A program made the translations under genes and the position numbers. A DNA stretch of 23,311 bases, from IMG/VR virus record IMGVR_UViG_3300036985_001413, positions 1-23,311 of that record; one strand, 5' to 3'. This document shows, piece after piece, positions 1 through 20,971 of this stretch. This DNA comes from a virus. The notes beneath the pieces are model-generated. The model did not search any database. It was given only the letters and a program-made list of their open reading frames with translations, and was not told the origin of the DNA. Within the stretch, counting starts at the first letter, position 1. Every line of letters starts with the position of its first letter.

Positions 1-131
1 CCTTCTACCGTCGCGCTCAAGCACAGGCGTTGCGGGATGCTGCTGACGCGGTGCATGACGATTACGGCTGTGATGCGGATTCTGCTGCAACGATTCGCCG
101 CATGGCCGACGAACTGGAGAACCAGAAATGA
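1..131 (+). CDS. 3' end of a small phage protein (5' end outside the window)
   Basis: An open frame runs from the left edge (first full codon at base 3) to TGA at 129-131, giving at least 42 residues. The visible part is helical, polar and alanine-rich, with the start RRAQAQALRDAADAV and the end MADELENQK. The stop overlaps the next start as ATGA (128-131), the coupling used throughout this operon, which is the main reason to believe it. Composition resembles its neighbours. I do not recognise the family, and the N-terminus is missing, so no function is assigned. Confidence 0.6.
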   Translation, partial: FYRRAQAQALRDAADAVHDDYGCDADSAATIRRMADELENQK

Positions 132-319
132 CCCCAGAAGAAGTAGCACAAGCCTGTCAGAAGTTTCAAGACTACCTCGCCGCCAACGGTGTTGAAGTCG
201 AGGGGTATTGTCTGCAATTTAACGGCTTGGTTGCCGCCACTATGCGGTATGACGCAGCCGTTGGAGCGTTACTCTGCGTCGTGGCTGATGTGAGGGGCTA
301 CAAGGTGGTGCCGAAATGA
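128..319 (+). CDS. Hypothetical phage protein, 63 aa
   Basis: This ORF starts with ATG at 128, overlapping the previous stop by ATGA, with GGAG about ten bases upstream. It encodes 63 residues: a helical N-terminus (TPEEVAQACQKFQDYLAANG) and then a hydrophobic, probably beta-rich second half. No signal peptide or clear TM segment is visible. It ends in another ATGA overlap with the next gene, so it sits inside a translationally coupled operon of tiny genes. The family is not recognised. Confidence rests on the chained overlaps, the ribosome binding site and the normal codon composition. Confidence 0.65.
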   Translation: MTPEEVAQACQKFQDYLAANGVEVEGYCLQFNGLVAATMRYDAAVGALLCVVADVRGYKVVPK

Positions 320-408
320 TCTCAATCACAACAGCATTCCTGATGATCCTCGCCGCTCTCGGCGTGGGGTTGCTTGTCGGCTGGATAATTTGGGGGAACT
401 TGGCATGA
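316..408 (+). CDS. Single-TM micropeptide, 30 aa
   Basis: A 30-codon ORF starts at ATG 316 and stops at TGA 406-408. Both ends are coupled: ATGA with the upstream stop (316-319) and ATGA with the downstream start (405-408). The product is nearly all hydrophobic from residue 3 to 27 (ISITTAFLMILAALGVGLLV, then GWIIW), with only a short polar end, so it is probably a membrane micropeptide. Without it there would be an 85-base hole in an otherwise gap-free operon. Its role is unknown; small membrane proteins of this kind in phages can be holin-like, exclusion or anti-host peptides, and nothing here decides between them. Confidence 0.55.
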   Translation: MISITTAFLMILAALGVGLLVGWIIWGNLA

Positions 409-575
409 AACACTTCGCCCGGCTAGTCCTCTGGTTCCTCTACCGCGATCAGATCACAGCCCGCAGCACAGGTCGTGGGCCGCAGTATGTGGCGGCGCTG
501 AACGACATGATTGCCGAGTGGGAACTGATACTTTGGAACGCGGAACATCCGCTGCACTTGGGAGATACGAAATGA
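405..575 (+). CDS. Hypothetical phage protein, 56 aa
   Basis: I place the start at ATG 405, which overlaps the previous stop by ATGA and has a G-rich ribosome binding site (GGGGGAAC) upstream. An in-frame ATG at 390 would add five residues but is less well placed. The 56-residue product starts MKHFARLVLWFLYRDQ, a short hydrophobic/aromatic helix, and continues as a soluble segment with ALNDMIAEWELILWNAEHP. The family is not recognised. The 3' end of the gene coincides with the left arm of a stem-loop (537-544 pairing with 593-600) just before the cassette array, so the gene lies exactly at the array's left edge. Confidence 0.6.
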   Translation: MKHFARLVLWFLYRDQITARSTGRGPQYVAALNDMIAEWELILWNAEHPLHLGDTK

Positions 576-616
576 ATACCGATAGCACAGCGTCCGCGTT
601 GACGTAAATGTTAGGA
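537..616 (+). repeat. Left-boundary attC-like (or attI-like) stem-loop
   Basis: The right side reads TCCGCGTTGA, seven bases, then GTTAGGA (610-616). This matches the right half of the attC-like site at 848-915 (TCCG, GTTGA, seven bases, GTTAGCC). The outer stem is AACGCGGA (537-544) with TCCGCGTT (593-600). An inner CGCTG/CAGCG pair extends it. A left R'' core (RYYYAAC) is not evident, so it is unclear whether this is a degenerate attC, an attI-like site or the target of the first insertion. The left arm lies inside the preceding gene. Confidence 0.4.
572..607 (+). pseudogene. Possible truncated gene start at the array edge, 11 codons
   Basis: ATG at 572 overlaps the previous stop by ATGA and has GGAG seven bases upstream, exactly like the real starts in this operon. 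The frame closes after only 11 codons (MNTDSTASALT), three bases before the first cassette boundary at 610/611. Two readings are possible: the start of an operon gene that was cut when the array arrived, or a chance ATGA. Removing 611-1719 in silico does not reopen the frame, because the stop lies upstream of the junction. The truncation idea therefore needs an additional change. Confidence 0.25.
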
Positions 617-628
617 ATGGAGATAGCC

Positions 629-853
629 ATGAAGTGGGAATGGAAAGGCAAAGAAGATAAGGCGGACAAGTCCGGAATCTTGGCGTTTGATTTTGCCGCA
701 GGAAAGACAAGCCTAGAACTGCCTGATTTTGGCGAGGCGCATTACTTGGCGCAGTTGATACACAAAGAGATTCAGGCAGCAGAACGTCGTGGAGCCACGA
801 ATGCGGTTGCGCGGTACGCAAGGCTTGGCGACGAGATTACCAATGATGCCTAA
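629..853 (+). CDS. Cassette A protein, unknown function, 74 aa
   Basis: I choose ATG 629 because GGAG (619-622) lies six bases upstream. In-frame ATGs at 608 and 617 have no suitable ribosome binding site, and 608 lies outside the cassette. The product is small and charged: MKWEWKGKEDKADKSG, a short beta-like stretch (ILAFDF, TSLELPDFGEA), then a helix containing LAQLIHKEIQAAERRG and a final ARLGDEITNDA. There is no signal peptide or TM segment. The stop codon TAA (851-853) lies inside the R'' core GCCTAAC of the following attC-like site, a position often seen in integron cassettes. I do not recognise the family. The beta-hairpin-plus-helix look is descriptive only. Confidence 0.7.
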   Translation: MKWEWKGKEDKADKSGILAFDFAAGKTSLELPDFGEAHYLAQLIHKEIQAAERRGATNAVARYARLGDEITNDA

Positions 854-915
854 CGCTGGCGTAACCGGCGCAGGCGGCTTTATCGCCTGCGTCCGTGTTG
901 AGCGACGTGTTAGCC
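848..915 (+). repeat. attC-like recombination site A, 68 bp
   Basis: R'' GCCTAAC (848-854) and R' GTTAGCC (909-915) bound an imperfect palindrome. The core is an 8-bp perfect stem CGCAGGCG/CGCCTGCG (869-876 with 884-891) around a 7-base loop, followed outward by AAC/GTT pairing. The left arm has TAAC where the right arm's complement has TCAAC. That one-base asymmetry is like the extrahelical bases that set strand choice in integron attC sites. The right part (TTGA, seven bases, GTT) matches the classic right end of 59-base elements. Confidence 0.7.
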
Positions 916-951
916 GCCGTACTACCAGCACCGACTTTTAAGGAGATGAAC

Positions 952-1212
952 ATGGCAGCAACGAGACAGGACATTGAAGGGTGGTTTGATCGTGGAGTGG
1001 CACAAAAGGCGCGGCACATGCTTGTTGTTTGCGACTCGTTCGACTACGACGACTATCCGGTCTTCACGACCACGGACGACGAGTGCTTGCGGAAGTACAA
1101 GCACCCCGGCGAAATGCAGCGCGTGATGGAAGTGTACGACCTCCGCGCCGACAAAGCCGAGCAGATGAACGAGCGCCGCGCCATGAGGTTGCCCGAGGCG
1201 GCTAACGCTTGA
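952..1212 (+). CDS. Cassette B protein, conserved-looking hypothetical, 86 aa
   Basis: The start is ATG 952, with AGGAG just upstream leaving six bases. ATG 946 is too close to the ribosome binding site, and earlier in-frame starts fall in the attC-like site. The product begins MAATRQDIEGWFDRGVAQKA, then HMLVVCDSFDYDDYPVF, and later MQRVMEVYDLRADKAEQMNE. This pattern (DIxxWFDRG, HMLVVCDxFDxxDYPV, MQRVMEVYDL) looks like a small widespread family of unknown function that I associate with phage and integron-cassette hypothetical proteins; that association is from memory. It is soluble, alpha/beta and acidic in the middle. The last codons (AANA) are read from the following attC-like site, with TGA at 1210-1212. 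Confidence 0.75.
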   Translation: MAATRQDIEGWFDRGVAQKARHMLVVCDSFDYDDYPVFTTTDDECLRKYKHPGEMQRVMEVYDLRADKAEQMNERRAMRLPEAANA

Positions 1213-1267
1213 AATGAGGGGGCTGAGCCGCTTTTGGCGAAGCTCCCGCTCGATTGACTGGTTGGGC
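1200..1267 (+). repeat. attC-like recombination site B, 68 bp
   Basis: R'' GGCTAAC (1200-1206) and R' GTTGGGC (1261-1267) bound a foldable region of the same length as site A. The inner stem is GCC/GGC (1227-1229 with 1236-1238). It extends through GCT/AGC (1222-1224 with 1241-1243) and GGG/CCC (1219-1221 with 1245-1247), with an unpaired T at 1244. R'' is the exact complement of GTTAGCC at the cassette's own left end (909-915) and not of the R' beside it, which is the diagnostic cassette pattern. Confidence 0.7.
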
Positions 1268-1286
1268 GGCTACTACGGAGAAGCAG

Positions 1287-1661
1287 ATGAACACCCAAGA
1301 CTTGAAGATACTGGCAAGTGATTTTATGAGCCACCCGCTTTCACGTGGCATATCGGATTGCGAGAAGGCCGGAGAGGCGCTGTTTGATGCGGCGCAAGAA
1401 ATTGACCGACTGAGCATCGAACTGGCGGATATGTGCGTCATTCGCGGGATTGATGACCGATTCGGCGGACGCTTGGCGCTGATGCTTGAATGCGCGATCC
1501 TCAATCCGAACGGATACTTTGATGATGCGTGCCGGCTGCTTGATGAATACAAGGCCGAGTGGGAGAAGGTGCATCCTTCGCCACCGACCTTCATGGGCGA
1601 ACCGATACCGTCTGAACGGCTTGAGAGATTTCGCGAATTCAAGACGCCCAACGTAAAGTAG
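1287..1661 (+). CDS. Cassette C protein, unknown function, 124 aa
   Basis: The start is ATG 1287 with GGAG at 1277-1280 and a six-base spacer, the same geometry as the other two cassette ORFs. A TTG at 1254 lies inside attC-like site B and is rejected. The 124-residue product is soluble and mostly helical: residues ~1-45 contain SDCEKAGEALFDAAQEIDRL. A middle segment has GIDDRFGGRLALMLECAIL. Then come NPNGYFDDACRLLDEYKAEW and a proline-rich, charged tail. No catalytic motif is evident. TAG at 1659-1661 lies within the third attC-like site, whose R'' GCCCAAC encodes part of the C-terminal TPNVK. The family is not recognised. Confidence 0.7.
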   Translation: MNTQDLKILASDFMSHPLSRGISDCEKAGEALFDAAQEIDRLSIELADMCVIRGIDDRFGGRLALMLECAILNPNGYFDDACRLLDEYKAEWEKVHPSPPTFMGEPIPSERLERFREFKTPNVK

Positions 1662-1725
1662 CCACCCTAAAAACCGGACAACTACACCGTCAAGGTGTCC
1701 ATTCCGATATTGAGCATAGTTTTAC
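1646..1725 (+). repeat. attC-like recombination site C, 80 bp, diverged right core
   Basis: R'' GCCCAAC (1646-1652) exactly complements GTTGGGC at the cassette's own left end (1261-1267). The centre contains a hairpin: ACACC (1684-1688) with GGTGT (1694-1698), or alternatively GGACA with TGTCC. The right part reads TTCCG, ATATTGAGC, then GTTTTAC (1719-1725), which lines up with TCCG, GTTGAGC and GTT in site A. The right core departs from GTTRRRY after GTT, as expected where the last cassette meets non-cassette DNA. This is the least certain of the three sites. Confidence 0.5.
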
Positions 1726-1806
1726 ACCAGAACATTCCGCCCCTGCGTGTGACATCTTCTGTGTCTAGTGAAAGCGCGGGGGTGGGAGGTACTAGGAGAG
1801 AACGAA

Positions 1807-1980
1807 ATGATTGGAATCAACGCACTTCATCTAAACGAAGCCACTATCACAGAAGCTGTGCAGGAGTGGTTAGATAAGCGTATGCCGAACGAAAATCAGT
1901 TGATAACTTCTGTGCAAGTAGAACGCGACGGAGCGTGTCAGATATTTGTAACTACGCTGACGCCAAAGGAGATGAAATGA
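1807..1980 (+). CDS. Hypothetical phage protein, 57 aa
   Basis: I choose ATG 1807, with GGAG at 1795-1798 and an eight-base spacer; a GTG at 1768 would add 13 residues without a ribosome binding site. It is the first gene after the cassette array, and the ATGA-overlap chain resumes from its 3' end (1977-1980). The product is a small soluble alpha/beta protein: MIGINALHLNEATITEAVQE, a helix to KRMPNE, then two beta-like stretches (LITSVQVER, CQIFVTTL). The family is not recognised. The 146-base leader before it could carry expression signals of its own, but no convincing promoter is visible. Confidence 0.65.
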   Translation: MIGINALHLNEATITEAVQEWLDKRMPNENQLITSVQVERDGACQIFVTTLTPKEMK

Positions 1981-2126
1981 CACGCACCGTCCTACTGTTA
2001 GTCGCACTACTCCTATCAGGCTGTGGCCAGCACTACCGCTGCATCGACGGCGTACTACACGAACGCATCGGAGTAACAGATGCATGGATTGTCAAAGGCA
2101 ACGAATGCAAGGAGATTAAAGAATGA
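1977..2126 (+). CDS. Small lipoprotein, 49 aa
   Basis: ATG at 1977 overlaps the previous stop by ATGA. The product opens with a textbook lipoprotein signal: MTRTVLLLVALLLSGCGQ, a basic residue, a leucine-rich core and the lipobox LLSGC with Cys16 as the lipidated residue. The mature part (~34 residues) contains two more cysteines (RCIDGVL and ECKEIKE), which could form a disulfide in the periplasm. It would be anchored in a membrane of a Gram-negative host. Small phage lipoproteins outside the lysis cassette can act in superinfection exclusion. That is only a possibility here. It is coupled to the next gene by ATGA at 2123-2126. Confidence 0.75.
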   Translation: MTRTVLLLVALLLSGCGQHYRCIDGVLHERIGVTDAWIVKGNECKEIKE

Positions 2127-2422
2127 CACGCACAGAAGAACTGCTTGCACTGGCAGAGGCAGCAACATCGGGGCCGTGGGACACAAACCCTGCTGATGCG
2201 TTCAGCAGTGAATTGGAAGTAACGGCGAGCAACCATTACGTGAGTGTCTGTAATGCGGCACCATATGACGCATTGTTCATCGCTGCAGCCAATCCCGAAA
2301 CCATCAAGCAATTGGTCGAGTTGGTGCGGTTGCAGCATGAGGCTTTGGAACGTGTTGGCCGTGACCAGCGGCCGATAACTGAGCCTGCCATAGAAGCATT
2401 CAACAAGTGGGAGGAGGAATGA
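2123..2422 (+). CDS. Ead/Ea22-like phage protein, 99 aa
   Basis: The gene starts by ATGA overlap at 2123. The product carries the hallmarks of a widespread phage early-region family: MTRTEELLALAEAATSGPW at the N-terminus and DALFIAAANPETIKQLVEL at residues ~49-67, followed by a helix (VRLQHEALERVG). I assign it to the Ead/Ea22-like group by this pattern, from memory. Members occur in lambdoid and other phages and mostly lack a known role. The C-terminal FNKWEEE is encoded by the GA-rich stretch that also serves as ribosome binding site for the next gene. Confidence 0.7.
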   Translation: MTRTEELLALAEAATSGPWDTNPADAFSSELEVTASNHYVSVCNAAPYDALFIAAANPETIKQLVELVRLQHEALERVGRDQRPITEPAIEAFNKWEEE

Positions 2423-2652
2423 GCCTCTACACCGTGTCATGGTGCGTCAAGGAGGGTGGTGAGTGGGTGAAACGGGTGGAGCGCGTCGAGTACCCCGACG
2501 ACGATGCTGCGAGGAAGCACATATTCCCACAAGAAGCTATCGACAGCCCCTACGCGCAGATCGAATCTAGCCCCATCGCAACGCCTTATATTCCCAAGTC
2601 GCACAAGGCCAAGAACACCAACGCATGGAAGCCTAAGAGGTACGGAGCATGA
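2419..2652 (+). CDS. Hypothetical phage protein, 77 aa
   Basis: The start is ATG 2419, overlapping the upstream stop as ATGA with GGAGG just before it; an ATG at 2407 is inside the GA-rich ribosome binding region. The product opens with beta-strand-like sequence (SLYTVSWCVKEGGEWVKRVE), has an acidic PDDDAARKH segment, and ends in a basic, proline- and asparagine-containing tail (KSHKAKNTNAWKPKRYGA). There is no membrane segment. The family is not recognised. It ends by ATGA overlap with the winged-helix gene. Confidence 0.65.
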   Translation: MSLYTVSWCVKEGGEWVKRVERVEYPDDDAARKHIFPQEAIDSPYAQIESSPIATPYIPKSHKAKNTNAWKPKRYGA

Positions 2653-3038
2653 CCGCCAACGAAGCCATCAGCAAAGCCGCCATAGCATACCTGCCAGCGA
2701 CCTACCGGCGTATCCTGCAACAGCTTGCTGTGGAGACGCTAGACGCGCAGGGGATAGCAGACCACCTCGGCATGACTCTCGGGGCCACCTACAAGCTGGT
2801 GATGATTCTGAAGGGGTTGAAAGTCATCTGCGTGGTCGAGTACCGGCGCGAGTCTGTCAAGGGCGCGCCGATTAAACTCTGGGGTCTTGGCAGCAGGGAT
2901 GTCCGACCCCCGCCGAAGATCGAACCGGCAGCGCGTAGCAAAGCGTGGCGTGAGCGGAACGGGCAGAAGCCGAAGATGGGGGTGTTTATGAAGTGGGCTA
3001 CTTCGGCACCGACTGTGCCAGCAAGTTCGTCTTCGTAA
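2649..3038 (+). CDS. Winged-helix DNA-binding protein, putative regulator, 129 aa
   Basis: This is the last gene of the plus-strand operon, started by ATGA overlap at 2649. Residues ~18-80 read as a winged helix: helix 1 (ATYRRILQQLAVETLDAQ), helix-turn-helix (GIADHLGMTLGATYKLVMIL) and a beta wing (KVICVVEYRRESVKGAPIKLWGLG). It is followed by a basic, proline-rich linker (RPPPKIEPAARSKAWRERNGQ) and a serine-rich end. A DNA-binding transcriptional role is inferred from the fold. Its targets are unknown. Its last 41 bases overlap the holin gene tail to tail (2998-3038), with no terminator visible between the converging units. Confidence 0.7.
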   Translation: MTANEAISKAAIAYLPATYRRILQQLAVETLDAQGIADHLGMTLGATYKLVMILKGLKVICVVEYRRESVKGAPIKLWGLGSRDVRPPPKIEPAARSKAWRERNGQKPKMGVFMKWATSAPTVPASSSS

Positions 3039-3504
3039 GGCTACCCTGGGTGGTTCCAAACCAGTACGATATGCACCCCGTCCAGGCTGTTCCGAGAGAA
3101 CCGAGCATTATCAGCAGCGGCGGGGAATTGACCACGGTTTCGTCGTACAGCATCAGCCCAAGGATGGTGAAGAACCCGACTGTGATCATGTAGGTCAGCA
3201 CAGTCGGCGTTGATGATCGCGTGGCAATCTGCATCTGCCTGGCTGAGTCACGATCCTTGAACTCAAGTTCAGAATACCGGAATCCAAGTTCCTTTTCCTT
3301 TGCTTGATACTCCAGTTCGAGTTTCTTGATCTCCGCGATCTGATCCGGCGTCACCCTGCCGTCACTGATGGCCTTGGCAACGTCTGTGACAGTCCCACCG
3401 TCGATGCCGAGTATCTTCGTCAGCCCGGCGACAGCAACGCCACCAAGAGGCCCGAGTAGGGCTGAAGCGATCGTTGGTGCAATACCTAGCAGGAACTCAT
3501 TCAT
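2998..3504 (-). CDS. Holin, GTA-holin-like three-TM family, 168 aa
   Basis: Holins make lesions in the inner membrane at the end of infection so that the endolysin can reach the cell wall. The product has a hydrophobic N-terminus (residues ~4-28, LLGIAPTIASALLGPLGGVA), a long charged, probably coiled-coil middle (~45-95), and two hydrophobic segments (~100-120 and ~128-149). It ends YWFGTTQGSLTKTNLL, a signature I associate with the family named holin of 3TMs for gene-transfer release. It is the last gene of the minus-strand block, started within overlaps with two small ORFs (3497-3504). It converges on the winged-helix gene and overlaps it by 41 bases. Confidence 0.75.
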   Translation of the reverse strand: MNEFLLGIAPTIASALLGPLGGVAVAGLTKILGIDGGTVTDVAKAISDGRVTPDQIAEIKKLELEYQAKEKELGFRYSELEFKDRDSARQMQIATRSSTPTVLTYMITVGFFTILGLMLYDETVVNSPPLLIMLGSLGTAWTGCISYWFGTTQGSLTKTNLLAQSVPK

Positions 3505-3589
3505 CTCTCGTCGCCTCCCATATCAGCAGGACTATCAGTATCAACGGAATCCCGATCACGAAGGTCACGGTCAGGTCGATCAACCACAT
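3497..3589 (-). CDS. Nested single-TM micropeptide next to the holin, 30 aa
   Basis: ATG at 3589 has an excellent ribosome binding site (TAGGAG, five bases, ATG). The 30-residue product begins MWLIDLTVTFVIGIPLILIV and is hydrophobic from ~2 to 23, followed by a charged end (WEATRDE): a single membrane helix. It lies wholly inside the 3' half of another small ORF (3501-3710) in a different frame, and its stop overlaps the holin start by eight bases. Position and topology suggest a holin regulator, antiholin or second holin, but there is no family match. The strong ribosome binding site and hydrophobicity argue that it is real. Confidence 0.55.
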   Translation of the reverse strand: MWLIDLTVTFVIGIPLILIVLLIWEATRDE

Positions 3590-3710
3590 GGAGTCTCCTA
3601 GAGGTGCGCCATGCCTTAATGAGTTCATGGGAGTCGTGTATCTCCGAGGGGAAGGGAGCATCGAGACGCAAGCAGAGGCCAAGGATGCGGTGGGAGAGTA
3701 GCGTGGTCAT
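3501..3710 (-). CDS. Small soluble ORF between endolysin and holin, 69 aa
   Basis: Its start ATG overlaps the endolysin stop as TAATG (3708-3712), and its stop overlaps the holin start as ATGA (3501-3504), so it fits exactly between the two lysis genes. There is no ribosome binding site, so expression would be by reinitiation after the endolysin. The product begins MTTLLSHRILGLCLRLDAPF, continues EIHDSHELIKAWRTSRRLHV, and ends very rich in Asp and Arg. That end is a likely by-product of sharing DNA with the nested TM peptide in another frame. I do not recognise it. If not coding, 3590-3709 would be a 120-base spacer. Confidence 0.4.
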   Translation of the reverse strand: MTTLLSHRILGLCLRLDAPFPSEIHDSHELIKAWRTSRRLHVVDRPDRDLRDRDSVDTDSPADMGGDER

Positions 3711-4123
3711 TACGGGTGGAATACACGCGATCCCGAGGCCGTTTTTCTTGTCGTCCAGTGACTCCAGCCCGGCGTTTCACTCGGCAGTTCCAGATATATC
3801 CCACACCACTCCAGCCGGCGCAGGTTCGCCATGCACCACCCATCAATCGCCCCCTCGGGGTCATAGCGATCGACAGCCATGCCTTCCTTATGCGCCGAGT
3901 GCTTGGCTCCAATGGCGCAGGACTGTGGCCTGAACCCGCCGAACTGAAACCCGCTGATCGGTGTCCCGGTGATGGAGTTCAAGGGGAACTCAACACCGTC
4001 CTGTCTGGCGAACACCTCAAGATCGGACACGGCATCCAGCAGTTTCTCGGCGTTATCGACACGCTCTGGAGTGGCGTCAGGGTGGCCTAACCACCTCCCC
4101 ATATAATCCGAAAACGTGATCAC
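3710..4123 (-). CDS. Endolysin, M15-type zinc peptidase, 137 aa
   Basis: This is probably a metallopeptidase that cuts the peptide stem or cross-link of peptidoglycan to lyse the host. I choose GTG 4123, which overlaps the previous stop as GTGA and gives MITFSDYMGRWLGHP, an opening typical of such phage endolysins; a GTG at 4144 is possible. The M15 metal motif SxHxxGxAxD is complete (S76, H78, G81, A83, D85 in SAHKEGMAVD), preceded by GFRP. A late histidine in GWSHW (H122), with a nearby Glu, would complete the zinc site and catalysis. There is no signal peptide or SAR domain, so it needs the holin to leave the cytoplasm. Its length suits a single-domain endolysin without a wall-binding module. 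Confidence 0.8.
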   Translation of the reverse strand: MITFSDYMGRWLGHPDATPERVDNAEKLLDAVSDLEVFARQDGVEFPLNSITGTPISGFQFGGFRPQSCAIGAKHSAHKEGMAVDRYDPEGAIDGWCMANLRRLEWCGIYLELPSETPGWSHWTTRKTASGSRVFHP

Positions 4124-4401
4124 TGGTGCACCACGTTCGGACACTCCGACCGATTCGCTTTGCCGTCGAGTTTGGTTTCGATCTTGTCCAACTTGGCGAA
4201 CAGGGCGATGATGGTCTTGTCGAAGTCATCACGCTTGATGTACGTCCCGGCGACCAAGACTTCAATCGCCTGAACCTTGGCCGCGAGTTTCTCGTCCGAG
4301 TCTCGCAGAGACTTCATGCTCTCCTGCAAGTTCTTCACGACCCACCCTCCGAGGAAGGAAATCAACCCGAGTGCTACGTTGATGAATACTTGCGGTTCCA
4401 T
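4120..4401 (-). CDS. TM plus coiled-coil protein of the lysis cassette, 93 aa (possible inner-membrane spanin or holin partner)
   Basis: ATG 4401 has a good ribosome binding site (AGGAAGGA). Residues ~5-22 (VFINVALGLISFLGGWVV) form one membrane helix near the N-terminus. The rest is charged and heptad-like, with KLAAKVQAIEVLVAG and then KRDDFDKTIIALFAKLDKIE. N-in topology would put the coiled coil in the periplasm. This is the layout of an inner-membrane spanin, though 93 residues is short for one. Similar short proteins beside phage endolysins are usually left as hypothetical. The stop overlaps the endolysin start (GTGA, 4120-4123). Confidence 0.6.
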   Translation of the reverse strand: MEPQVFINVALGLISFLGGWVVKNLQESMKSLRDSDEKLAAKVQAIEVLVAGTYIKRDDFDKTIIALFAKLDKIETKLDGKANRSECPNVVHQ

Positions 4402-4442
4402 GCTTCGTTCCTTCCTGGCCTCTGTGGGCTAGATGCGTTGTA

Positions 4443-4796
4443 CTACGAAACCTTTTCCCAATTCTGTGTCCCAGCAACCTGCAAGAGATGCCAGCGATAT
4501 GGCAACAAATCGTATTCCATCGGCAACGGATGCCTGTTATCCAGCACCCACGTCTGGCCGTCCCAATCGACTAGCAGAACAGCGTGGTAGCCGCCTGTCT
4601 CGACGTAGCATGTCGCAAGCCGCAAGAACTGCGTAGGCCATCCCATCTGCACCAGACGCTCGAACTTGGCAGTTGCGGCGCTATCACAATCGCCGGAAGT
4701 GACGATAGGAACCCAATCATCCTCAATCTCCGTTGCATATGGCAGCAGGTTGATCTTGGTATTGACCAGCCTCAGATCATTCAGAGAGATAGTCAT
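4443..4796 (-). CDS. Transglutaminase-like cysteine peptidase (BTLCP/C93-like), 117 aa
   Basis: I choose ATG 4796, which has GGGTGGGA upstream; ATGs at 4829 and 4811 lack a ribosome binding site. The catalytic triad of the transglutaminase-like fold is visible in order: Cys37 in SGDCDSAATAKFERL, His71 in GGYHAVLLV, Asp86 in TWVLDNR. The spacing and the phrases GDCD, HAVL and WVLDN match the bacterial transglutaminase-like cysteine peptidase family (from memory). At 117 residues it is a minimal version with no signal peptide. It lies among lysis genes just upstream of the TM/coiled-coil protein and the endolysin. It may process a peptide or virion protein, or act on cell-wall peptides, and the sequence does not say which. 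Confidence 0.75.
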   Translation of the reverse strand: MTISLNDLRLVNTKINLLPYATEIEDDWVPIVTSGDCDSAATAKFERLVQMGWPTQFLRLATCYVETGGYHAVLLVDWDGQTWVLDNRHPLPMEYDLLPYRWHLLQVAGTQNWEKVS

Positions 4797-4878
4797 AGGG
4801 TTCCCACCCATAGTAGATTCAGCTTGCATGTTTCGCTTGGTGTACTAGCCCTGAGGGGTAAGCCTTTAGGGTGGGAAT

Positions 4879-5028
4879 TCATTTCGGACAACTCGCTAGT
4901 TCAGGGTGCTCAATGCACAGCTTGCTGTAACCAGCAGGAGGCGTGGCCAGCTCTCCACTACCACGAAGAATACTTGGCTCAGTACAGCCCACCAGCACTA
5001 GGCTACAGAGAATCAGCAGCAGGCGCAT
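4879..5028 (-). CDS. Small lipoprotein, 49 aa (candidate outer-membrane spanin)
   Basis: ATG 5028 has GGAG with a seven-base spacer. A longer in-frame ORF from 5091 would bury the signal peptide, so it is rejected. The product begins MRLLLILCSLVLVGCTEP, a signal peptide with lipobox LVGC and Cys15 as the lipid anchor. The mature part is ~35 residues with PP and two later cysteines (KLCIEH, ASCPK). Size, lipobox, prolines and position in the lysis region fit an Rz1-like o-spanin, but the sequence is not a clear match and no gene nests it in the classic Rz/Rz1 way. Its start overlaps the 66-aa ORF by 26 bases. Confidence 0.65.
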   Translation of the reverse strand: MRLLLILCSLVLVGCTEPSILRGSGELATPPAGYSKLCIEHPELASCPK

Positions 5029-5203
5029 CGCTAGTCTCCGGCCATCCCGAGAAATGAAGCGTTCTCTGGCTGTAATCTCCCTTATGCACAATGACGAATG
5101 GCGAGGTCATATCCCACTCGGAGCACAGATCAACTGTTGCTAGATCAGGCATCTCAGTGACCATGGAGGTTTCGCCGTTGATGCTGATGTGGTAGTTGCT
5201 CAT
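5003..5203 (-). CDS. Hypothetical phage protein, 66 aa
   Basis: ATG 5203 overlaps the stop of the large fibre gene as ATGA (5200-5203), so the gene is probably translated by coupling to it. The product is small, acidic and soluble: MSNYHISINGETSMVTEMPD, then SEWDMTSPFVIVHKGDYSQR, and a tail SDAPAADSL. It has beta-rich character and no membrane segment. The family is not recognised. It could be a fibre chaperone or accessory given its place directly after the fibre gene, but this is positional inference only. Its 3' end contains the start and ribosome binding site of the lipoprotein gene. Confidence 0.55.
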   Translation of the reverse strand: MSNYHISINGETSMVTEMPDLATVDLCSEWDMTSPFVIVHKGDYSQRTLHFSGWPETSDAPAADSL

Positions 5204-8112
5204 GATGTGATTGCTCTCATTTCTGAGTCGGAGAGTTTGCGGTTCCAGATGCGGATATTTCTTACTGCTCCATTAAGTGGGCGCGTACCGTCAGTGCGAA
5301 CCCCCACGCCGATTGTGGTTAGTCCAGAAGCTGTGTAGTCAGACGAACCACTACTCACCACTGTTCCCTCGTTTATTACCGCCGAAAAATTAGCTCCGGA
5401 GAAGCTTATAGCGTATTTGTTTGTGGTGTTAGCAACTGCACCAGTTACGTTTACCCCCGTAGCTGCCCATCCGGTGTTAGTTCCGCCGGCGTTATTGATG
5501 TTTATATAACTACCTGTGGCGAGTGGCCCTGTGCTAACTACAGAACCTAGCGCCACTGCGCTGTTGTAACCACCCTCCGCAAAAATAGTGCCTACCGCCC
5601 CTAGATTCCCCGCACTTGGATAGGTGAGCACGTCAGCATTCCGCGCTACTGCGACGGTGGTGGTGGGGATATATGGGCCAGCAAAGGCTCCTAGATTTAC
5701 CATTGCGCCGTAGAATACTGCGGAGCCTTGGGCTGCTACGTCTAGAACTCCGGTAGGTTGCGTGGCGTCGGTTGTACCAGCTGGTATAAGGTAGTGCGTG
5801 TAGCTTGCGGCGGTTGCAGTATATGTAAGAGCAACCCGCCAAAAGCTATCGTTGTACGAAACACAAGAAGCTGATACTCCAACAAGTGTTGCTCCATACC
5901 CGTTCGATACCCATGCAGTAGCCACGCCATTGTTAGTGTCAATTGTTGCGAAGGCAAAAGCGACATTATTTACTTGAAGCACTGGAAATGCTGCGGCTCC
6001 GACAGTCTTTTTAACAAAGCCACTAAAGGTGTATGCCGCAGCAGTAAGCACAATATTTTGATATATTTGCTCAATATTGCCTCCGTCGTTGTCCGTCAGC
6101 GTCCATGCGGATATTGCGCCATCTGGCCCAACTACGTTTTGTGTCGCTGACGGAGTACCACCGTTCGTCCACGGTGCAGTAGCAAACGCATTACCCTGCA
6201 ACGCAATATTCGTCCTCGCCTCCCACGGCACATAGCCGACGATGGGGTAGTTTGACACTGGAATATATGCTGAACCATTCAGCGTCCAAGTCTCGCCTGT
6301 AGAACCAGTGAGAGTCGTGCCACCACCGCTGTAACGTGCTGCGTTGAAATCTACGGCGAGGGTGCCGTTGATGCCGTTGTAGATTTGGGCTTGGAATATT
6401 TTGCCGTTGAGGACCTGTGAGGTTCCAGTGCTGCGACTCCCAAGTTCTACAGTGACATTTGGGTCAAACAACGTTATCGCGGTAGCGGTAGTTACCGGGC
6501 TGCCTAGCTGCGTCCAAGTTTCACCATCTGTAGATGTATAAAACGTAACGTCATACCCTGCTGCCCCATTATCCACATCAACAGTAACACGGCACCAACC
6601 TGCCGCCCCGTCAGCAAATCCCATAGCAGATACGCTTCCTTTGATGATTACGTTAGCGCCCGTTGTAGATAAAAATACACGCAGTGCGCCATCAGTATTG
6701 ACTTGTAAAACCCAACTGTTTGTTGCGCCTCCAGTGCCCCACTTTGCAGCAAGCGTCGTTTCCGCAGCAGGCGTCCAATCCGTCAGTGCCGCCTTAACCC
6801 GAATATCAATATCCCCTGTGATACTAGCCGCCACACTATCCGGCGTAGAAACATACGTTCCAGCAACACCATTCAGCGTGACAGCTTCATACGTTGCGCT
6901 GGTCGCAATAGGATTCCCGAGTCTATCCGTGTCGTAGCACTTGACGCCATCTACCATGCTGCCGTGGTAGGCTGCGGGTTTGACGCTGATGTTGTCATAG
7001 AAACCAGTCTGTGTTGATGTCGACGATTGGTTAATCATCGAAATGTACGTTGTGGTTCCGGTAGCGGTGAACGTGAAAGTTGCAAATGTTGATGTTGTGC
7101 TAGTCGTAGTCTGCACACCTAGGCCAATTGCACCTTGACTTATTCCTGCGCCTATCGCCACACCTGTAGCAGTTCCACGGTACATTGTTCCAGACACGAC
7201 ATATTTAGTGCCAATGACAGTTGAGATCGCCCGATAGACATAGCCGAAATCCGCGCCACCATTGGTTATCAGGAGTTCAGAAGAAACCACTGTTGCAACA
7301 CCACTACCAGCAGCAGTCCACCCAGTAGTCGCTGAATCAAATGTGCCGTTAGTGATAGACTCCGGCCCTGCCCAATCAGCAGGGACACCAACAGAGACAT
7401 ACGGCCTGATAGTAGTCTGGTCGGTTTCGCCGGTGATGTCGTTGAGTTGTGGGTGCCAAACGAGAATATCTGCGGAAACTGTTCCACCAGCAGCGGAGAA
7501 CGAGAGTAACTCAAAACTTGTAGCAGCCCCTGAAACAGAATTCACCGAGAACTGCTGCCACACCTCCGTTACATCAATCAGAGGCTGTATGTTTGTGCTA
7601 GCAGACCCATTACGAAAGCACACCTGCTGAGAATCCCCTGCGGTTGTCCTAGCCCAGATAGCCCGTTGTGTAGTATTTCCCGGCGCTGCGCCCAATGCTG
7701 CTTGCTGAATTCTTGAGAAAGTCCCCGCCCCACGATCCAGTTGAAGCCGCGTAGCGGTGTAGGTTCCATCCGGAGCGGATACACTTCCATAATTGTCAGT
7801 AACAACAGGTAATGTTCCTCCACTGTTATCCTTAACCCAAATCGCATTCGAGAACGCTGCAGTGGTTGTGACAAGCAGATTCCTAACCCGCCTAGCCCCC
7901 TTGAATACCATCTCCCCAGCAAGCGCTGTGAAATCCAGATAGCCGTTGTCATCCCACTTCTGGCCGGTTTCCGTGGTGGCTCGGGTGAAGGATGGGGTGA
8001 GGGAGCCGCGAGTGGGGATGGCGGAGTGGGTGAGGGGGAGTTCAACAGCAGCAGAGTTGAACAGGCGCTGTATCGCGCTGACAGACCTACGCAATCCAGA
8101 CCAGACTATCAT
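5200..8112 (-). CDS. Large tail fibre / receptor-binding protein with repeated carbohydrate-binding-type domains, 970 aa
   Basis: ATG 8112 has AAGGA seven bases upstream. The protein is a mosaic of beta modules. An N-terminal segment (1-75) leads to a jelly-roll/CBM-like unit starting GARRVRNLLVTTTAAFSNA (72-~245). A second unit opens SITNGTFDSATTGWTAAGSG (252-~380). A LamG/concanavalin-like unit (~405-600) contains DGETWTQLGSPV. Another jelly-roll unit starts ARTNIALQGNAFATAPW (632-~825). A C-terminal LamG-like unit ends NIRIWNRKLSDSEMRAI. These phrases are typical of phage fibre proteins that bind surface sugars. No hydrolase triad or beta-helix spike signature was recognised, so binding is more likely than depolymerase activity. 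It probably decides host range. Confidence 0.75.
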   Translation of the reverse strand: MIVWSGLRRSVSAIQRLFNSAAVELPLTHSAIPTRGSLTPSFTRATTETGQKWDDNGYLDFTALAGEMVFKGARRVRNLLVTTTAAFSNAIWVKDNSGGTLPVVTDNYGSVSAPDGTYTATRLQLDRGAGTFSRIQQAALGAAPGNTTQRAIWARTTAGDSQQVCFRNGSASTNIQPLIDVTEVWQQFSVNSVSGAATSFELLSFSAAGGTVSADILVWHPQLNDITGETDQTTIRPYVSVGVPADWAGPESITNGTFDSATTGWTAAGSGVATVVSSELLITNGGADFGYVYRAISTVIGTKYVVSGTMYRGTATGVAIGAGISQGAIGLGVQTTTSTTSTFATFTFTATGTTTYISMINQSSTSTQTGFYDNISVKPAAYHGSMVDGVKCYDTDRLGNPIATSATYEAVTLNGVAGTYVSTPDSVAASITGDIDIRVKAALTDWTPAAETTLAAKWGTGGATNSWVLQVNTDGALRVFLSTTGANVIIKGSVSAMGFADGAAGWCRVTVDVDNGAAGYDVTFYTSTDGETWTQLGSPVTTATAITLFDPNVTVELGSRSTGTSQVLNGKIFQAQIYNGINGTLAVDFNAARYSGGGTTLTGSTGETWTLNGSAYIPVSNYPIVGYVPWEARTNIALQGNAFATAPWTNGGTPSATQNVVGPDGAISAWTLTDNDGGNIEQIYQNIVLTAAAYTFSGFVKKTVGAAAFPVLQVNNVAFAFATIDTNNGVATAWVSNGYGATLVGVSASCVSYNDSFWRVALTYTATAASYTHYLIPAGTTDATQPTGVLDVAAQGSAVFYGAMVNLGAFAGPYIPTTTVAVARNADVLTYPSAGNLGAVGTIFAEGGYNSAVALGSVVSTGPLATGSYININNAGGTNTGWAATGVNVTGAVANTTNKYAISFSGANFSAVINEGTVVSSGSSDYTASGLTTIGVGVRTDGTRPLNGAVRNIRIWNRKLSDSEMRAITS

Positions 8113-20008: not shown

Positions 20009-20971
20009 TTAGGCGAGAGCCAGACCTTGTTGATGACGGTTGGAGCAAGTCAGGTTGCCCATCCACAGGATCGGCACGACATCGCCGTCTTGGTTGATCG
20101 GACGCTGCGAATCGACGATTTCCAGATCCGCGTCACGATGCACCACCAGTTCCAGATAGTTGCTATTCAGGAAGTAGGCGTGAGTCGTGGGGATGCCGGA
20201 GTTGCCGTCGAAGTAGACGTCAGCGTTCTTGTACTTCAGGGAAACCAGGCCTGCATTGGCGCTCTCAGCGTTGGTGTAACGCTTGATGCTGGTCTGCGAA
20301 GCCTCGAAATACTTGTAGAACGTGTTGTCCATCACGATCAGGTCGGGCTGGTCATCGGGGCCGCGATCCAGATTGAGCCACAGCGGAAGCATGATGCTGT
20401 TCTCGATGGTCGTTGCCGATGCAGTGACCGAGTTGTCCGAGCAGTCGAAAATCTGACTTTTCCAGAACGTGTAGGTACCAGAATCAATGCCGCCGACAGT
20501 GCCGGTTCCGAGGTCGGAAACCAGAGCCTGCAAACCATTGATCTGGTTCGACAGGGTGCCAGCCGAGTACAGGTCGGACGAGAAGTTGTTGTTGAAGGTG
20601 CGGATCGCATTCTTCATCTTCGACTTCGCCAGCGAGAAGATGCGGGACTCGCCGGAGTTGATGCGCTTCTCACGACCGGAAGCGACGATGTTAACCGCGA
20701 TCTGACGCCACTGGTACTCGGCGGCGCTGATAACGTCGGACGCGCCGATGTTCAGCAAATCCCAATCGCTGTAACGCTGATAGGTGGAGTTCTCGGCATA
20801 GTCGAGCGGAGTAACGATGGTCAAGCCGCCGTCTTCGCTGCGATAGTTGCCGCGTTTGTACATGTGCTTCAGAAGGGCGTTGCGGTTCGTGAGGTTGTCC
20901 TTGACATCCTTGCGAACCTTGCGGAAGGTGGAAGTCACCAGTTCCGTGAAGGTACTATTGGGGCTAGCCAT
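20009..20971 (-). CDS. Major capsid protein, 320 aa
   Basis: This is the shell-forming subunit. ATG 20971 has AAAGGAG upstream. The product begins MASPNSTFTELVTSTFRKVR, followed by NRNALLKHMYKRGNYRSEDG and IVTPLDYAENSTYQRYSDWD, with later DQPDLIVMDNTFYKYFEASQ, LKYKNADVYFDGNSGIPTTH and YFLNSNYLELVVHRDA, ending in MGNLTCSNRHQQGLALA. These are characteristic of a phage major capsid family with a predicted HK97-like fold in podoviruses (from memory). Its length fits the family, and it sits directly after the scaffold gene. No protease gene is seen between scaffold and capsid. Confidence 0.85.
   Translation of the reverse strand: MASPNSTFTELVTSTFRKVRKDVKDNLTNRNALLKHMYKRGNYRSEDGGLTIVTPLDYAENSTYQRYSDWDLLNIGASDVISAAEYQWRQIAVNIVASGREKRINSGESRIFSLAKSKMKNAIRTFNNNFSSDLYSAGTLSNQINGLQALVSDLGTGTVGGIDSGTYTFWKSQIFDCSDNSVTASATTIENSIMLPLWLNLDRGPDDQPDLIVMDNTFYKYFEASQTSIKRYTNAESANAGLVSLKYKNADVYFDGNSGIPTTHAYFLNSNYLELVVHRDADLEIVDSQRPINQDGDVVPILWMGNLTCSNRHQQGLALA

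Follow-up and report, generated by a model that had tools for sequence, protein, structure and literature searches.

An integron cassette array in a phage operon whose genes read against their attC sites

Can a row of small genes inside a phage operon be made of integron cassettes and, if so, which piece of DNA moves as the unit? The question is raised by positions 598-1661 of IMGVR_UViG_3300036985_001413, a linear phage fragment of 23,311 bases. The complete IMG/VR record was analysed and is called the window below. The ORF of an integron cassette normally points in the same direction as its attC site, which allows expression from the integron promoter Pc. IntI acts only on the folded bottom strand of attC, and this fixes the orientation of the cassettes so that they face Pc (PMC11023631). 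A sequence-only reading had described the locus as an integron-type cassette array within a phage operon. This holds: 598-1661 is a genuine integron cassette array (CALIN) inside the operon of a podovirus-like phage, with two attC sites found by a covariance model, and a related phage has an array with mostly different cassettes at the equivalent site. The polarity of the units is the reverse of that first described.

attC sites and ORFs of the array

The genes of the window are oriented rightward from 1 to 3038 and mostly leftward in the remainder. A short membrane-type gene, putatively holin-like, lies at 2998-3504 and the major head protein is encoded at 20009-20971 (phrog_9953, E 2.5e-74). 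Relatives of the head protein were found in MW202489 (63% amino acid identity, the best annotated relative), in Bradyrhizobium phage ppBjS10J-1 (42%) and in Stenotrophomonas phage BUCT555 (37%). Window DNA 1-8000 gave no match in cultured phages.

attC sites were searched with a covariance model, R1, trained without the window on 28 aligned attC from arrays upstream of bacterial intI genes. Its strand call was as expected in all 130 of 130 bacterial matches, and the model also detected class 1, Vibrio and Shewanella sites. Only two good sites were found on the window, both on the minus strand: attC1 at 848-915 (33.5 bits, E 4.1e-7; R'' GGCTAAC, R' GTTAGGC) and attC2 at 1200-1267 (43.4 bits, E 9.8e-10; R'' GCCCAAC, R' GTTAGCC). 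No other match in the 23 kb exceeded 9.9 bits, and on the plus strand the site at 848 reached only 8.1 bits. In the covariance model alignments, the anatomy of both sites is full length (R'', L'' with an extra base, variable stem, L' and R'). The L'' of attC2 carries its extra base as bacterial attC do. R1 found no attC in MW202489.

Folding as DNA gave z = -4.0 for the plus strand of 848-915. The value for 1199-1267 was -0.7, no better than that of shuffled sequences; because of this, the support for attC2 comes from the profile and not from the energy. A third palindrome, at 1646-1725, had also been taken as an attC. It was rejected, as R1 gave no match there up to E = 10 and the z values for the fold were -1.0 and -0.4 (1645-1725). 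The earlier prediction of three attC that would match a covariance model and fold was borne out on both counts at 848-915, for the model at 1200-1267, and on neither count at 1646-1725. A search with Rfam gave no result. A home-made fold-symmetry scan was too unspecific and was superseded by the covariance model and a profile pair.

Three ORFs were confirmed on the plus strand, co-directional and each with a GGAG six bases 5' of its ATG. ORF A (629-853, 74 aa) has its TAA stop directly at a cassette junction. ORF B (952-1212, 86 aa) belongs to a widespread phage family of unknown function, and the protein of ORF C (1287-1661, 124 aa) also occurs in other phage cassettes. The cores, at 610-616, 848-854, 909-915, 1200-1206, 1261-1267 and 1646-1652, were seen again, as was the surrounding operon of ATGA-overlapped genes, which continues past the array on the plus strand with small overlapping genes at 1807-2649 (ATGA overlaps). 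attC1 belongs to ORF B and attC2 to ORF C. The locus has the minimum of two attC within a few kb that defines a CALIN, and ORFs B and C provide one short ORF per unit between attC. To ORF A may belong a candidate attC0, an uncertain and degenerate R''+L'' half on the minus strand at 598-616 (TCCTAACATTTACGTCAAC). Its 5'-arm profile score of 10.6 is the fourth highest among those on the window's minus strand and its location is as expected; the covariance model gave no match to it. A complete integron would have intI and attI beside the array. No intI was found in the 23 kb record, which is a linear fragment; the complete phage genome may be different in this respect. Near the array, intergenic stretches that look alike (ctagtgaaagcgcgggggtggg and variants) occur at 1740-1800 of the window and at 740-790 and 2540-2610 of the related phage (L015). 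In both phages they are perhaps a promoter or a terminator.

Polarity of the genes and extent of the mobile unit

The attC of the window are on the minus strand and the ORFs on the plus strand; therefore, the genes read against their attC, whereas in canonical cassettes ORF and attC share a strand. The plus-strand calls of ORFs B and C are independent of the gene finder, as viral relatives were found at 21 loci for B and in three other contigs for C. With attC on the minus strand, G^TT falls at three points. Junction A/B is at 853/854 (GCCTAA^C, G^TT on minus), the position of R' of attC1, and junction B/C is at 1205/1206 (GGCTAA^C), the position of R' of attC2. The right end of the array, on the attI-like side, is at 1651/1652 (GCCCAA^C), where the R' core is complementary in 7/7 positions to R'' of attC2. 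No attC was detected beyond this point by the covariance model or by an arm-profile scan of the window. A unit is then an attC followed by an ORF, so that n cassettes require only n attC. Units of the [ORF + attC] type had been proposed at 611-909, 910-1261 and 1262-1719. With the strand of the attC taken into account, the units become 854-1205 and 1206-1651, and a further one ends at 853. The complementarity of each R'' to a core at the other end of its unit (6/7, 7/7, 7/7), from which the earlier boundaries and polarity had been deduced, is real but does not decide either of them, as the core pairs are identical in both readings. From its sequence, the mobile unit is thus predicted to be [attC + downstream ORF], cut at RYYYAA^C, and not the usual [ORF + attC]. 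Tools that define cassettes as an ORF upstream of an attC will misassign phage units, as happened with the window.

The polarity of viral and bacterial cassettes was compared on a larger scale. A DNA pattern for one attC type yielded at least 120 stretches in viral contigs, most of them carrying attC, and 312 R1 matches were obtained in the first 80 of these loci. The bacterial set was composed of 80 intI loci, mostly betaproteobacterial or class 1, fetched via alignment of three IntI proteins. Sites were called with a profile-pair finder at a threshold of 32, the best score in 0.93 Mb of shuffled sequence being 28.6. A first count using the longest ORF alone gave 119 cassettes opposite to their attC, 37 in the same direction and 89 ambiguous. 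Because of this ambiguity, coding likelihood and ribosome site were used to score the ORFs anew. After rescoring, the deduplicated viral contigs gave 172 cassettes opposite and 8 same, and the deduplicated bacterial intI loci 5 opposite and 60 same. By contig, 58 viral contigs were mainly opposite, none mainly same and one was a tie, as compared to 1 opposite and 26 same for bacteria. The Fisher test gives p = 5e-42 for viral versus bacterial cassettes, but as the cassettes counted are non-independent, the contig figures (58:0 versus 1:26) are the fairer ones. Ascertainment differs between the two sets, one attC pattern having been used for the viral set and intI homology for the bacterial one; this difference is removed by a set of viral intI loci, in which 35 cassettes between attC are opposite and 3 same.

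The protein families point the same way. The proteins read opposite to attC (143 proteins) matched 95 PHROG families, whereas those read with attC in the same cassette set (102 proteins) matched none. Moreover, two genomes carry two arrays each, on opposite strands and in divergent operons, and all four arrays are reversed (G025, L250 3659-4764 and 11594-17257; G015, L256 640-3511 and 12560-15912). Misbinned bacterial integrons were rejected as the source of the viral arrays: the contigs checked, other than short and nearly all-cassette ones such as L154, carry tape measure, primase, tail fibre, head closure, major head or other phage-family proteins, and misbinning is also opposed by the reversed polarity. 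Overall, almost all of the comparable phage arrays found here have reversed genes, suggesting a cassette exchange that belongs to the phages and is separate from the bacterial one.

The ends of the units could be located on near-identical cassettes that occur in more than one viral contig. Such cassettes were found in L120/L184 (99.9%), L169/L184 (99.1%), L155/L203 (86%) and L035/L195 (84%). The shared segments begin at a distance of 2-4 nt from the RYYYAA^C that precedes the 5' attC, and most of them extend 2-16 nt beyond the following RYYYAA^C; with strict scoring, the L035/L195 segment stops 46 nt short. In L262, one cassette is duplicated within one array (5266-5926 and 6341-7001), with both ends of the duplicated segment exactly at AA^C, which points to recent recombination. 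Junctions analogous to A/B and B/C were thereby verified in other phages, on cassettes that are either shared or duplicated. As a control, both ends of bacterial aadA-type cassettes were located within 1-8 nt of G^TT.

Relatives of the array and competing explanations

The closest comparison is with the related phage L015, the holin-like protein of which is 84% identical in amino acids. Its array lies at the same place and has minus attC, rightward ORFs and mostly different cassettes. Window 870-1053, covering most of attC1 and the first 34 residues of B, is 93% identical in DNA to L015; other genes follow. ORF B itself is 94% identical to its L015 counterpart for 34 residues (window 952-1053, L015 886-987) and then unrelated, a break that apparently reflects homologous recombination within the cassette gene. 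As regards the mobility of units in the window itself, only the differing content of L015 and the common attC1+B block bear on it. Among other relatives, G002 and G008 have arrays elsewhere in the genome, that of G002 being far from the holin-like gene, and no attC match was obtained in the recovered sequence of G003, G004, G005, G006, G007 and G009.

The three ORFs differ in their distribution. For ORF A, relatives were not found in viral or bacterial contigs. ORF B is a common phage gene, present at 21 viral loci (39-94% identity) and in 9 cultured-phage records, elsewhere without attC. Homologues of ORF C are encoded in cassettes of G011/L133 (64%) and L195 (55%). In G011, four attC are on the plus strand and the cassette genes, including the C homologue, on the minus strand. 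In L031, a C homologue at 2635-3080 is followed by a lone core-like CTCTAAC and then by a gene for a tyrosine recombinase, which may be what is left of a decayed array. A scan of bacteria with fragments of C and A joined together, using six short patterns, gave no relatives, a result that does not prove their absence.

Could the array be a fossil, that is an old site-specific insertion that has become fixed and in which the attC have at most a role as hairpins between cistrons? The half lost from attC0, the lack of intI on the fragment and the weak fold of attC2 would agree with this. However, the L boxes and extra bases are conserved in two attC, L015 carries other cassettes at this site and near-identical cassettes circulate among other phages, so that we regard a fossil array as rather unlikely. 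Canonical bacterial cassettes (ORF then attC), taken from a host integron by the host integrase, could also be envisaged, since the cores and the ORF spacing are compatible with either polarity and the TAA stop of ORF A lies inside a core, as in many cassettes. This origin is already contradicted by the strand of the attC. In addition, the B block common with L015 includes the upstream attC, bacterial relatives of A or C were not found in the six-pattern scan, and attC1 is nearer to phage than to bacterial attC, with alignment scores of 0.87-0.90 versus attC of other phages (including the intI-bearing L272) and of 0.76 at best with bacterial ones; we consider it very improbable. Ordinary phage gene mosaicism with palindromic terminators in place of integron sites, which would account for B being a common phage gene without attC elsewhere and for the identity with L015 ending inside ORF B as after homologous recombination, hardly deserves credence in view of the E values obtained with the bacterial attC profile, the full anatomy of the two sites and the lack of anything comparable in the window.

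Overall, the most convincing interpretation, which we hold with high confidence, is that the window carries a CALIN at the promoter-distal end of a phage operon, each unit being composed of an attC and a promoterless gene in the orientation opposite to that of bacterial cassettes. The missing intI, the degenerate attC0, the weak fold of attC2, the lack of relatives of ORF A and the L015/L189 pair, which have only an ORF and not the attC in common, weigh against it.

The following mechanism can be proposed for such a reversed CALIN. An integron integrase would recombine the folded bottom strand of attC, predicted to be the coding (plus) strand in the window, and the units would be joined at RYYYAA^C (G^TT on the opposite strand). 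Because the genes read against their attC, captured cassettes of the reversed convention would all land in the direction of the phage operon. Their transcription would come from the phage operon promoter, replacing Pc. The insertions in the window may have been made by the IntI of the host, of a co-infecting phage, or of a lost or unsequenced gene of the phage itself, and A, B and C are possibly small accessory or host-takeover proteins. The polarity would be maintained because a cassette of the opposite convention would be antisense. As a possible additional effect, transcription may expose the non-template strand, hence the recombinogenic hairpin.

Phage integrases, cargo and known systems

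Clusters of attC without integrase, as in the window, have already been published in phages (Qi et al. 2023, PMC9892861): phage attC were shown to recombine with IntI1, and DNA methyltransferases are among the cargo. With this publication and the viral stretches collected here, the earlier statement that phage cassette clusters are rarely described has to be amended. Two arrays used experimentally in that study, TJE1 and PH101, are there called typical of bacterial arrays (PMC9892861). According to R1, the attC of TJE1 indeed share the strand of the annotated ORFs, unlike those of the window. In contrast, another example from the same paper, MW202573 (L299 2069-3738), has attC on minus by R1 and annotated CDS on plus, and is thus reversed; its polarity passes without remark there. 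Phage CALINs are therefore known, while we found no report of reversed polarity. A literature search on reversed polarity or on phage-encoded integron integrases, with preprints and most subscription journals outside its scope, retrieved nothing on point.

Phage arrays resemble bacterial chromosomal and class 1 integrons (betaproteobacterial attC type) in attC anatomy, G^TT cut and intI/attI/attC geometry. They differ from them in that the cassette ORFs read against attC, toward intI, and the window fragment has no intI. In Treponema integrons, intI and cassette genes are also transcribed in one direction (PMC3607928); there, however, intI is oriented toward attI and the cassettes away, whereas phage intI has its usual orientation, away from attI, and it is the cassette genes that are reversed. 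In the inverted superintegron of V. cholerae, the placement of the attC bottom strand alters excision rates (PMC11023631). In that case the whole array is flipped relative to replication, whereas in phages it is the single ORF that is inverted with respect to the attC of its unit.

Phage-encoded integrases were searched in 47 viral records with arrays, using a curated IntI cut-off. Only one record exceeded it, with 390 bits (G018, IMGVR_3300037311_000474, L248 1-4581). This 40 kb phage contig has intI at its end, about nine attC, and ORFs directed toward intI. With this IntI as query, 32 near-full-length viral homologues were retrieved, about 18 of which adjoin detectable attC in the standard geometry. 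In a tree of IntI sequences, of which the root is uncertain and the bacterial sample biased to IntI1-like sequences, 23 viral IntI are split from all 25 bacterial IntI (branch support 100/99). Eight other viral IntI are found elsewhere, near Vibrio and Shewanella IntI.

The cargo was considered through the 143 cluster representatives read opposite to attC. N6/N4 and C5 DNA methyltransferases, Dam, Mom, Lar and MazG are among them, as well as dATP/dGTP diphosphohydrolase, RNA ligase, NinX and HNH proteins. For the majority, as for A, B and C, no function is known. The reversed arrays, several of which have their own integrase together with methyltransferase, Mom, Dam or Lar cargo, imply that phages can shuffle counter-defence genes site-specifically.

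We lean towards the view that a distinct integron system belongs to phages whose hosts are environmental and probably for the most part proteobacteria, with a phage IntI lineage, an attI at the end of an operon, and small counter-defence or host-takeover genes pooled as [attC+ORF] units of a polarity fixed opposite to the bacterial one. The sequence-only reading had offered a choice between a phage as a vehicle for cassettes and a phage as a site of insertion by a host integrase. That choice misses the option favoured by the data, a phage-borne cassette pool, partly beside phage intI. If true, the reversed convention would keep phage and bacterial pools apart, as a cassette of the foreign pool would insert antisense and would not be expressed. 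In a distinct phage system, the strand that recombines would also be the non-template strand of an operon with strong transcription. The origin of the cassettes, the mixing of phage and bacterial pools and the reason why polarity is kept can now be tested.

Two further observations concern the viral integrases. A second viral IntI group (L282-L289) stands apart from the first in the tree and has few detectable attC; its arrays may be of another attC type. Finally, in L266 an array in which eleven attC were detected is followed by intI and by a second large ORF with the length of a recombinase. At 4569-6778, its intI is directly followed by this 392 aa gene, a candidate second tyrosine recombinase which, if confirmed as such, would suggest a temperate phage.
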